A stretch of 64,000 bases of DNA from contig NZ_JABSNM010000015.1 of assembly GCF_013294065.1 (NCBI RefSeq), positions 27,277 to 91,276 of the forward strand, given 5' to 3'. Under the pieces are notes generated by a model. It saw nothing but the letters and a program-made list of their open reading frames with translations, did no database searches and had not been told where the DNA came from. The translations under genes and the position numbers were made by a program. This DNA comes from Sphaerotilus uruguayifluvii. Lineage in GTDB: Bacteria > Pseudomonadota > Gammaproteobacteria > Burkholderiales > Burkholderiaceae_C. Position 1 is the first letter of the stretch, and each line of letters starts with the position of its first letter. This document shows positions 2 to 3,346 of the stretch, in pieces.

Positions 2-2389
2 GTCGAGGCGCGACTGCAGATCATCGCGCTCACCGACCAGCGCATCGCGGGCCTGCGTCAGCGCAGTGATCGACTGCGAGCGCTCGTCCGCCAGCGCATT
101 GATCCGCGCCAGCTCGGCTTCCAGATCGGCGCGTGCCTGCTCGGTCTGCGCTGCCGTGGCGGTCACGCCGTCGAGGCGCGACTGCAGATCATCGCGCTCA
201 CCGACCAGCGCATCGCGGGCCTGCGTCAGCGCAGTGATCGACTGCGAGCGCTCGTCCGCCAGCGTGCTGGTCCGCGCCAGCTCGGCTTCCAGTGCAGCAC
301 GCGCCTGCTCGGTCTGCGCTGCCGTGGCGGTCATGCCGTCGAGACGCGACTGCACTTCGCCCAGCTCGTCGCTGTGCCGCTGGGATGCAAGCAGCGCGGC
401 GGCGGCCGCCGAAGCCGCCGCGGCCATCGCACCCTGGCGCTCGCCGGAGAGCGTTTCCTCGGTGGAGCTCAGGCGCGACTGCAGATCATCACGCTCACCG
501 ACCAGCGCATCGCGGGCCTGCGTCAGCGCGGTGATCGACTGCGAGCGCTCGTCCGCCAGCACGCTGATCCGCGCCAGCTCGGCTTCCAGTGCAGCACGCG
601 CCTGCTCGGTCTGCGCTGCCGTGGCGGTCATGCCGTCAAGGCGCGACTGCAGATCGTCGCGCTCTCCGACCAGCGCATCGCGGGCCTGCGTCAGCGCAGT
701 GATCGACTGCGAGCGCTCGTCCGCCAGCGCGTTGATCCGCGCCAGCTCGGCTTCCAGTGCAGCACGCGCCTGCTCGGTCTGCGCTGCCGTGGCGGTCATG
801 CCGTCGAGGCGCGACTGCACTTCGCCCAGCTCGTCGCTGTGCCGCTGGGATGCGAGCAGCGCGGCAGCAGCAGCCGAAGCCGCCGCGGCCATCGCGCCCT
901 GGCGCTCGCCGGAGAGCGTTTCCTCGGTGGAGCTCAGGCGCGACTGCAGATCGTCGCGCTCGCCGACCAGCGCGTCGCGGGCCTGCGTCAGCGCGGCGAT
1001 CGACTGCGAGCGCTCGTCCGCCAGCGCCTTGATCCGCGCCAGCTCGGCTTCCAGATCGGCGCGCGCCTGCTCGGTCTGCGCTGCCGTGGCGGTCATGCCG
1101 TCGAGACGCGACTGCACTTCGCCCAGCTCGTCGCTGTGCTGCTGCGACGCGAGCAGCGCGGCGGCAGCCGCCGAAGCCGCCGCGGCCATCGCTCCCTGGC
1201 GCTCGCCAGAGAGCGTTTCCTCGGTGGAGCTCAGGCGCGACTGCAGATCGTCGCGCTCACCGGCCAGCGCATCGCGGGCCTGCGTCAGCGCAGCGATCGA
1301 CTGCGAGCGCTCGTCCGCCAGCGCGCTGATCCGCGCCAGCTCGGCTTCCAGATCGGCGCGCGCCTGCTCGGTCTGCGCTGCCGTGGCAATACTGGCGTCG
1401 AGGCGCGACTGCAGATCGTCGCGCTCACCGACCAGCGCATCGCGGGCCTGCGTCAGCGCGGCGATCGACTGCGAGCGCTCGTCCGCCAGTGCGTTGATCC
1501 GCGCCAGCTCGGCTTCCAGTGCAGCACGCGCCTGCTCGGTCTGCGCTGCCGTGGCGGTCATGCCGTCGAGACGCGACTGCACTTCGCCCAGCTCGTCGCT
1601 GTGCCGCTGGGATGCAAGCAGCGCGGCGGCAGCCGCCGATGCCGCCGCGGCCATCGCACCCTGGCGCTCGCCGGAGAGCGTTTCCTCGGTGGAGCTCAGG
1701 CGCGACTGCAGATCGTCACGCTCACCGGCCAGCGCATCGCGTGCCTGCGTCAGCGCGGCGATCGACTGCGCACGCTCGTCCGCCAGTGCGCTGATCCGTG
1801 CCAGCTCGGCTTCCAGATCGGCGGCACGGGTCTGCAACGCCGCCCGGTCGGTCTCGAGCGCGCTGATCGATTCCCCTTGCCGGGTGTTGAGCGCCTGGGA
1901 CTCGGCCAGATCGCCGCGGGTCTGCAGCAAGGTGCCGTAGGCCTCGCGGGCCAGGGCGGCGTACTCGGCCCGCTCGGCCTCGCGCAGGCTGCCGAGCTCC
2001 TGGTGCTGCGCCTGCAGCGCGCGGTGCTCGTCGTCGAGCTGCGCGTGGCGGGCACCCAGCGCGGACAGCGTCGCCTGGTGCTCGTCGCGCATCTGGCGCG
2101 TCGTCGCCAGCTCGGCCTGCTCGCTCTCCAGCCGCGAGGCCAGCTGCGCCCGCTGGGCCGCGCTGTCCTCGGTCTCGGCGCGCAGCGCGTCGCGCTCGGC
2201 CTGCAGCGTCGCCAGCGAGGTCGACAGGGTGTCGGCACGGAGCTGCTCGTCGGCATGCCGGGCCTGCAGCTCCGCCATGCGCTGCTCGTGCGCGCGCTGC
2301 CGGCAGGGTTTCCACAGCGCAAGGCCCAGACCGACGCCGGCCAGGCAGGCCAGCAGGAGGTACAGCCACAGTTGGCTCAGCAGATACAT
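2..2389 (-). CDS. Membrane-anchored coiled-coil protein with tandem 56/99-residue modules (3' end beyond window)
   Basis: The minus-strand frame starting at ATG 2389 stays open to the left edge, so the C-terminus is missing. Residues 1-28 form one hydrophobic helix (MYLLSQLWLYLLLACLAGVG) ending in WKPCRQR, which suggests an inner-membrane anchor. The rest is Ala/Glu/Gln/Arg/Leu-rich with heptad character, so a long coiled coil is expected. From about residue 195 it consists of near-identical modules (LEAELARI..LADERSQSI..LTQARDAL..ERDDLQSRL). The spacing of a marker 9-mer is 168 or 297 bases, that is 56 or 99 residues; long modules carry an extra segment beginning SSTEETLSGERQ. An SD-like GGAG lies about 11 bases upstream. 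It follows an OmpA-type gene on the same strand, so a role in the cell envelope is inferred. I recognise no enzymatic domain. Confidence 0.75.
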   Translation of the reverse strand, partial: MYLLSQLWLYLLLACLAGVGLGLALWKPCRQRAHEQRMAELQARHADEQLRADTLSTSLATLQAERDALRAETEDSAAQRAQLASRLESEQAELATTRQMRDEHQATLSALGARHAQLDDEHRALQAQHQELGSLREAERAEYAALAREAYGTLLQTRGDLAESQALNTRQGESISALETDRAALQTRAADLEAELARISALADERAQSIAALTQARDALAGERDDLQSRLSSTEETLSGERQGAMAAAASAAAAALLASQRHSDELGEVQSRLDGMTATAAQTEQARAALEAELARINALADERSQSIAALTQARDALVGERDDLQSRLDASIATAAQTEQARADLEAELARISALADERSQSIAALTQARDALAGERDDLQSRLSSTEETLSGERQGAMAAAASAAAAALLASQQHSDELGEVQSRLDGMTATAAQTEQARADLEAELARIKALADERSQSIAALTQARDALVGERDDLQSRLSSTEETLSGERQGAMAAAASAAAAALLASQRHSDELGEVQSRLDGMTATAAQTEQARAALEAELARINALADERSQSITALTQARDALVGERDDLQSRLDGMTATAAQTEQARAALEAELARISVLADERSQSITALTQARDALVGERDDLQSRLSSTEETLSGERQGAMAAAASAAAAALLASQRHSDELGEVQSRLDGMTATAAQTEQARAALEAELARTSTLADERSQSITALTQARDALVGERDDLQSRLDGVTATAAQTEQARADLEAELARINALADERSQSITALTQARDALVGERDDLQSRLD
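11..1711. repeat. Tandem in-frame coding repeats, 168-bp and 297-bp units
   Basis: The 9-mer cgactgcag recurs at 11, 179, 476, 644, 941, 1238, 1406 and 1703. Successive spacings are 168, 297, 168, 297, 297, 168 and 297 bases, all multiples of three. Copies differ by only scattered substitutions, which indicates recent duplication or ongoing gene conversion. The 297-base units are the 168-base unit plus a 129-base insert (43 codons). Read in the coding (minus) direction the order is long, short, long, long, short, long, short. Confidence 0.9.
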
Positions 2390-2481: not shown

Positions 2482-3279
2482 TCACGGAGCCTTGTCGTGC
2501 GCCAGATGGAACTCAATGCGCCGGTTGCGCTCGTGGGCCTCGGGGCTGTCGCCCGGATCCAGCGGCCTCGTCTCGCCGAAGCCCTGCGCCTGCAGCCGCG
2601 AGCGCGGCACGCCCGAATGCACCAGCGCCTCGACCACCGTCTCGGCACGGCGCTGCGACAGCCGCTGGTTGAAGTCGGCGCCGCCCTGGGTGTCGGTGTG
2701 ACCCTCGATGCGGATGTGCGCCTGCGGGCAGCGCGTCGCGAGCTGGTGCAGTTCGCGCAGCACCGGCTCGCTGGCCGGATCGAGCTCGGCCGACGCGACG
2801 CGGAAGCGGATCTGCTGGCGCTCGACCACCCGGGCCATCGCGACCTGGCAGTCCTCGACGCTCAGCGGCGCCGAGGCACGGGCCGCGGGCGCGGCAGGCA
2901 GGTCGGCGGCAGCGGAGGCCCGCGGCGCCGGCACGGCCGGCAGTTCGATCGACGGCGCGGTCTGCGCATCCTCGATCCGCGCGAAGACGCCCGGCACGCC
3001 CATCATCGGCAGCAGCAGCGTGTTGGCTGCCGCACCGGCCGCCGCCCGCTGCGCCAGCGAAGGCGCCTCGCCCACCAGCCGGCCGACCTCGTCGTCGATC
3101 TTCAGCCGGGCCCAGGGAAAACCGGCCGCCTCGAGCAGCCGGGCCGCATCGGCCTCGGTGCGGGTGCGCACCTCGTCCGCCTTGGACTGGCCGGTGCCGA
3201 CCAGCGTCCAGGCCAGCAGGCCCAGCCCCGCCAGTCCGAGCAGCGTGCACAACGGACAGTTCAGCCATCGCCGGGTCAT
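2482..3279 (-). CDS. OmpA-family peptidoglycan-binding envelope protein
   Basis: The protein has 265 residues if started at ATG 3279 (MTRRWLNCPLC); an upstream in-frame ATG at 3333 would add 18 arginine-rich residues. A hydrophobic segment (about residues 9-28) anchors or exports it. A linker of about 115 residues rich in Ala and Pro follows. The C-terminal 110 residues are a classical OmpA/MotB peptidoglycan-associating domain: F-x-V-x-S-A-E-L near the start, RIEGHTDTQG, LSQRRAETV, GFGETRP and ERNRRIEFHL. It probably tethers the envelope to peptidoglycan. It lies 92 bases upstream of the coiled-coil gene on the same strand, so the two may be cotranscribed. The region upstream holds a 24-base palindrome. 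Confidence 0.8.
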   Translation of the reverse strand: MTRRWLNCPLCTLLGLAGLGLLAWTLVGTGQSKADEVRTRTEADAARLLEAAGFPWARLKIDDEVGRLVGEAPSLAQRAAAGAAANTLLLPMMGVPGVFARIEDAQTAPSIELPAVPAPRASAAADLPAAPAARASAPLSVEDCQVAMARVVERQQIRFRVASAELDPASEPVLRELHQLATRCPQAHIRIEGHTDTQGGADFNQRLSQRRAETVVEALVHSGVPRSRLQAQGFGETRPLDPGDSPEAHERNRRIEFHLAHDKAP

Positions 3280-3346
3280 CGCACGGATCCCTTCATGTCT
3301 GCAGGATGCTGCGTGCCGACCCCGGTGACTCACCGGCCGGGCCAGG

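Follow-up and report, generated by a model that had tools for sequence, protein, structure and literature searches.

At its start, a 64,000-nucleotide stretch of the Sphaerotilus uruguayifluvii genome (the window; contig C15, positions 27277–91276; the genome comprises 4.89 Mb over 48 contigs) encodes on its minus strand the N-terminal part of a long repetitive protein, the rod, whose gene lies directly downstream of an OmpA-domain gene. We consider it probable that the rod is an inner-membrane-anchored, cytoplasm-facing coiled-coil spacer with a helix-hairpin-helix (HhH)-like tip, which together with the upstream, periplasm-facing OmpA protein forms a recurrent two-gene module tethering something cytoplasmic. 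The gene pair, the domain order, the conserved ends, the lineage-specific repeats and the predicted coiled-coil periodicity can be read directly from the sequences.

Repeat units of the rod gene

The repeat search recovered the eight copies of a marker sequence claimed by the original prediction (window starts 6, 174, 471, 639, 936, 1233, 1401 and 1698), spaced 168 or 297 bp apart (successively 168, 297, 168, 297, 297, 168 and 297), with the remaining seven copies 90–96% identical in DNA to the reference copy. Tandem Repeats Finder (TRF) reported periods of 168, 297 and 465 bp across the array, with scores of 600–2019. Read in the direction of the gene, the units follow the anticipated order long-short-long-long-short-long-short, each long unit (99 residues) being a short unit (56 residues) with a 43-codon block inserted after ...LQSRL, and the modular, in-frame nature of the units is supported. 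The predicted near-identity of the copies in DNA holds for cores 1–11 (90–100%); cores 12 and 13 are 70–81% identical to the others and to each other.

Direct repeats TGCAGTCGCGYCT flank the 43-codon Ala-rich block in each of the six long units read, so that recombination deleting the block would yield a short unit. Units 2-3-4 and 9-10-11 have diagnostic variants in common (DASI tails in 2 and 9, SQQH in 3 and 10), which suggests a block duplication. The ratio of non-synonymous to synonymous substitution rates between units (dN/dS; Nei-Gojobori, ratio of means) is lowest in the Ala block (0.05; 15 pairs), intermediate in the core (0.14; 55 pairs, cores 1–11) and highest in the tail (0.52; 45 pairs), values that are only rough because of gene conversion among copies. 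Apart from 56 = 8 x 7, the fit of unit lengths to heptads was given no weight, as nearly any length near 100 fits a period of 3.5–3.6.

A run of 98 N (C15:27179–27276) immediately precedes window base 1. Past this gap the rod frame resumes in the same phase and runs through units of 56, 99, 99 and a degenerate 56 residues to a last degenerate core, which makes 13 cores overall and 1370 codons from ATG to stop, gap counted. The marker spacings are 99, 56, 99, 99, 56, 99, 56, 87 (across the gap), 56, 99, 99 and 56 codons; since the cross-gap value of 87 codons (261 bp) is neither 168 nor 297 bp, the N run is inexact in length and the count of 13 cores provisional.

Membrane helix, coiled coil and C-terminal domain

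The rod protein comprises, in order, a membrane helix, a coiled coil and an HhH-like C-terminal domain. The N-terminal membrane anchor of the original prediction is recovered as a helix at residues 7–26, and the N-terminal motif MYLLSQLWL.L.LACLAG is common to the four orthologues found in the genus. A coiled coil, likewise anticipated, is supported by the hydrophobic period of the part encoded in the window (3.53 with the residue set ILVMFYW; power 6.62 vs a shuffle 95% level of 1.07) and by the long helices that AlphaFold2 (AF2) predicts for residues 1–356 (five sequences; helices 3–168 and 174–355, mean predicted local distance difference test score 81, predicted template modelling score 0.26). 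With the same set, all five congeneric rods have periods of 3.53–3.57, exceeding in every case the 95% level of 100 shuffles, and the G123 and G127 rods fall short of that level when Ala counts as hydrophobic; the shuffles used a coarser period grid and did not keep the repeats. Sub-threshold coiled-coil matches to ATG16, SMC and Rad50 were set aside as composition matches.

None of 20 proteins with this architecture, the S. uruguayifluvii rod included, has a lysine or arginine before the membrane helix, and the 15 residues past the assigned helix end hold 60 in sum and 2–5 in each protein. The set leaves out G290, which is built differently; the start methionine was picked by eye for G005, G045 and two paralogues, and the first of the frame was used for the alphaproteobacterial rows. 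According to the positive-inside rule, this charge pattern predicts an N-out/C-in orientation, which would place the rod in the cytoplasm and not across the envelope. The OmpA protein starts (MTRRWLNC...) with the opposite charge pattern, as judged by eye.

Beyond the gap, the protein ends in a conserved domain (DDLKIIDGIGPVNEAWL...RVYRENWVAQA) that is homologous, by significant sequence match, to the complex I NuoE-type extension and to a domain of the photosynthetic protein-O, and that complex I, ribosomal and phasin proteins carry as well. The hairpin motif of HhH domains is G-h-G-P between two helices; S. uruguayifluvii has GIGP at this place, GIGP or GVGP is found in 14 of the 16 aligned rows, and G005 and G045 have GVKT or GVAT. 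No HhH family model matched the S. uruguayifluvii C-terminus in a curated family scan, and in relatives such models fall below cut-off (PF11798, E 0.097; PF00633, E 0.083; PF14520, E 0.094). The HhH domains of NusA AR2 and the RadA-Rad51 N-terminus belong to other proteins with other ligands, and any likeness of fold would imply no common function.

NuoE is not known to have a membrane helix or a rod. Its type of C-terminal extension (PDB 9wqv_a; NCBIfam NF009040) is homologous to the C-terminal domain of the rod, from which it differs in being part of an enzyme subunit. Protein-O of the Dinoroseobacter shibae reaction centre–light-harvesting 1 (RC-LH1) complex (PDB 8YY9; PMC12079452) resembles the rod in its N-terminal membrane part and long flexible linker, and it carries the same C-terminal domain (E 1e-26). 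Unlike the rod, it has 239 residues, two N-terminal membrane helices and a gene between nuoE and nuoF, and no repeat rod is described for it (PMC12079452). The paper calls the function of protein-O unknown and that of its C-terminal domain obscure, and reports a disulfide between residues 10 and 59 of two membrane helices on the cytoplasmic side, which agrees with a cytoplasmic C-terminal domain (PMC12079452).

The predicted OmpA-type neighbour is confirmed by its match to PF00691 (E 2.1e-23). Its product has an N-terminal hydrophobic helix (by eye), past which the protein is probably periplasmic, and its gene adjoins the rod gene in all five congeneric loci.

Features of the rod locus in window coordinates
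Feature	Position	Strand	Basis or remark
Rod gene, N-terminal 796 codons; runs off the window start into the gap	2..2389	-	ATG at 2389, frame still open at base 2
Membrane helix (residues 7-26)	2312..2371	-	no K/R before, KPCRQR after
Non-repeated, predicted helical segment (residues 27-201)	1787..2311	-	translation and AF2
Unit 1, long (99 residues)	1490..1786	-	repeat search and translation
43-codon Ala-rich block of unit 1	1568..1696	-	also at 1103-1231, 806-934, 341-469
Unit 2, short (56 residues)	1322..1489	-	repeat search and translation
Unit 3, long	1025..1321	-	repeat search and translation
Unit 4, long	728..1024	-	repeat search and translation
Unit 5, short	560..727	-	repeat search and translation
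Unit 6, long	263..559	-	repeat search and translation
Unit 7, short	95..262	-	repeat search and translation
Unit 8, initial 31 codons, truncated by the scaffold gap preceding window base 1	2..94	-	
Gene with an OmpA domain, adjoining the rod gene on its upstream side	2482..3333	-	likely ATG at 3279 (MTRRWLNC...)
OmpA domain (PF00691)	2521..2805	-	E 2.1e-23

Conserved ends and variable spacers among relatives

The C-terminal domain is matched at E <= 1e-8 in 5 of 13 genomes of the genus, all five with a long rod near rne and, except in G123, near pabBC (four of five); the synteny queries d1–d6 appear to be antisense frames and were used solely as synteny markers. Rod length varies between species, as predicted, the four orthologues having 991 (G058), 925 (G126), 868 (G123) and 791 (G127) residues. 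Conservation of the unit borders did not hold up: three orthologues are built from other repeat units (423 bp in G058, 96% match; 354 bp in G126, 99%; 351 bp in G127, 91%), the G123 rod has no strong tandem repeat, only a 21-bp array, and blastn at E <= 1e-10 aligns only the ends of the S. uruguayifluvii gene with the others (the first 68–159 nucleotides in three of the four, 253–402 nucleotides near the 3' end in all four). Without composition correction, blastp aligns the congeneric rods over their whole length, that of S. uruguayifluvii with the others at 27–33% identity, which we take to reflect heptad and Ala composition together with true homology at the ends; the congeneric rods may have a common ancestor. 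The Ala-rich motif of the 43-residue block is present in all five (6 pattern counts in S. uruguayifluvii, 2 in G058, 3 in G123, 8 in G126, of which 3 are overlapping look-alikes, and 2 in G127).

In at least five loci of the genus (L074, L075, L076, L077, L078), an OmpA gene sits with a short coiled-coil-like gene between frames that we take to be parE and parC. Where visible, these short genes begin with an MFLLAQLW-type sequence, and the one of G120 matches the G058 rod at E 4e-9. Elsewhere (L079; G120:C1:2521000–2531000), several adjacent frames end in a VPEPETYAMLLAG-type motif plus basic residues, presumably a PEP-CTERM sorting signal. Downstream of the S. uruguayifluvii rod gene and outside the window, a 205-codon frame on the minus strand (L003:9761–10378) combines a hydrophobic N-terminal stretch with an ALAREAY motif similar to one found in the non-repeated segment of the rod; tblastn found no match to this frame in the four orthologous loci.

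Within the family, the N-terminal part is matched in 2 of 120 genomes and the C-terminal profile in 5 of 299, own genome counted. The three profile matches from other genera are G005 and G045, in which OmpA is followed by a membrane helix, Pro-rich VDLxPVxxRLxxLExAVxxI-type repeats (period 3.38) and HhH, and G290 (L091:2784–4433), in which a propeller match (PF17164) is followed by a membrane helix (by eye) with RGWRR and then HhH. All ten alphaproteobacterial matches of a contig search, which include close kin, are transmembrane (TM)-spacer-HhH proteins with an OmpA gene directly upstream. They share with the rod the gene pair, the MFLLSQ-type helix and the C-terminal domain (as in L035, Hyphomonadaceae bacterium UKL13-1), and differ from it in their 230–326 residues and short spacer, with no tandem repeats seen by eye. 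A plasmid search matched two rhizobial records, one of them unannotated at this place.

A 16-sequence profile matched 47 of 369 genomes in a class sample and 67 of 299 in a phylum sample. Among the 58 best loci of the two samples, 38 with at least 350 nucleotides upstream were counted and 20 left out: OmpA is adjacent at 8 of 19 loci with an N-terminal helix (9 of 19 if L100, outside the distance limit, is included) vs none of 19 without one. Three left-out loci (L109, L142, L145) have an OmpA match at or overlapping the frame start; the match lies 508 nucleotides upstream of a frame containing unknown bases in L095 and downstream in L113, and 14 of the 58 loci have any OmpA match. All three f53 genomes have frames of 988–1032 codons with a period of 3.51 and OmpA upstream; predicted long rods beside OmpA are found in at least two distant families. 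Spacer length among relatives ranges from 43 (L103) to >1200 residues. Two proteins of ~920 codons that by eye resemble ATP-binding cassette (ABC) transporter ATPases (L156 and L160, in G852 and G850) carry the same HhH domain at their end.

The component parts are already known, and a search of open-licence PubMed Central text found no description of an OmpA and TM-spacer-HhH pair with a hypervariable spacer.

Proposed tether and alternative explanations

In the explanation that we favour, the OmpA-domain partner would face the periplasm and should bind peptidoglycan, the coiled-coil spacer would present the HhH-like tip at a distance from the membrane, and the two proteins together would hold a cytoplasmic target (nucleic acid, a ribosome or a protein complex being candidates) at some remove from a membrane site anchored to the wall. 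Here the membrane topology, the association of the two proteins and the tethering are what we infer. In-frame recombination between repeats that are long and nearly identical probably lengthens and shortens the spacer, whose sequence and length would then differ among species while the ends are kept. The pair is perhaps a two-gene wall-to-cytoplasm tether with a hypervariable spacer. A more specific version, a wall-to-nucleoid or wall-to-ribosome linker, strikes us as distinctly unlikely: OmpA would hold peptidoglycan, the membrane helices of the two proteins would pair, and the HhH tip would bind the nucleoid or some other large body in the cytoplasm, at a standoff of ~10 to >180 nm that recombination adjusts in each lineage through the number of repeats.

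Several observations weigh against the favoured explanation. The post-helix stretch was taken to begin at the first charged residue, a choice that raises the charge count, and several alphaproteobacterial rows carry up to 7 acidic residues in this flank, so that their signal is weaker. No OmpA match lies in the 9–10 kb around any of three shorter HhH paralogues of the genus, or in the 4.8-kb contig of G290. Among eight further regions, only the three f53 ones have OmpA upstream; L156–L160 have no OmpA match, and two of these, L157 and L158, encode long TM-coil-HhH proteins.

The original prediction had instead proposed a periplasmic rod, anchored by the helix and crossing the envelope toward the outer membrane beside the OmpA protein, with a reach set by copy number. 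The N-terminal helix and the OmpA-domain neighbour fit such a rod, but the charge pattern is the opposite in 20 of 20 proteins, the far-end domain is shared with complex I, ribosomal and phasin proteins, and G290 places its propeller and its HhH domain on either side of the helix and RGWRR. At a helix rise of 0.1485 nm per residue, the crude spacer lengths of the congeneric rods correspond to ~102–188 nm when extended, and ~100–190 nm far exceeds the width of a periplasm; we regard this arrangement as highly improbable. That unit order and number were produced by assembly across the repeats is improbable as well: the array is interrupted by the 98-N gap, the spacing there matches neither unit and the genome is in 48 contigs, but single-base differences distinguish the copies, the reading frame stays open to either side of the gap, and G058 (3 contigs) and G123 (2 contigs) carry long rods without N.

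On spacer length, the strongest rival is neutral repeat expansion, in which solubility and an extended shape are all that the spacer requires, and slippage or recombination lets its length drift untuned. Tuning and drift both fit the data, and drift is a serious contender, if somewhat short of probable. The repeats of the congeners are unlike in DNA, spacers span the whole range given above, and Pro-rich repeats fill the same place in G005 and G045, as drift would have it; the low dN/dS of the core and the Ala block, the Ala motif retained in five of five congeners and the presence of long rods in two or more separate families speak against it. Crescentin and TipN are analogues for another possibility, a cytoskeleton-like scaffold in which the long coiled coils would associate side by side beneath the membrane and clients would be recruited by the HhH end. 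We think this unlikely: very long predicted helices, Ala-rich patches and purifying selection are compatible with it, but no Pfam or NCBIfam scaffold family scored above cut-off in the pieces scanned.

The recurrence of a widespread, cytoplasmic-type domain of obscure function at the tip of a membrane-anchored spacer beside an OmpA gene gives this domain a testable setting, and the spacers, from 43 to >1200 residues, form a natural length series for asking whether reach matters.
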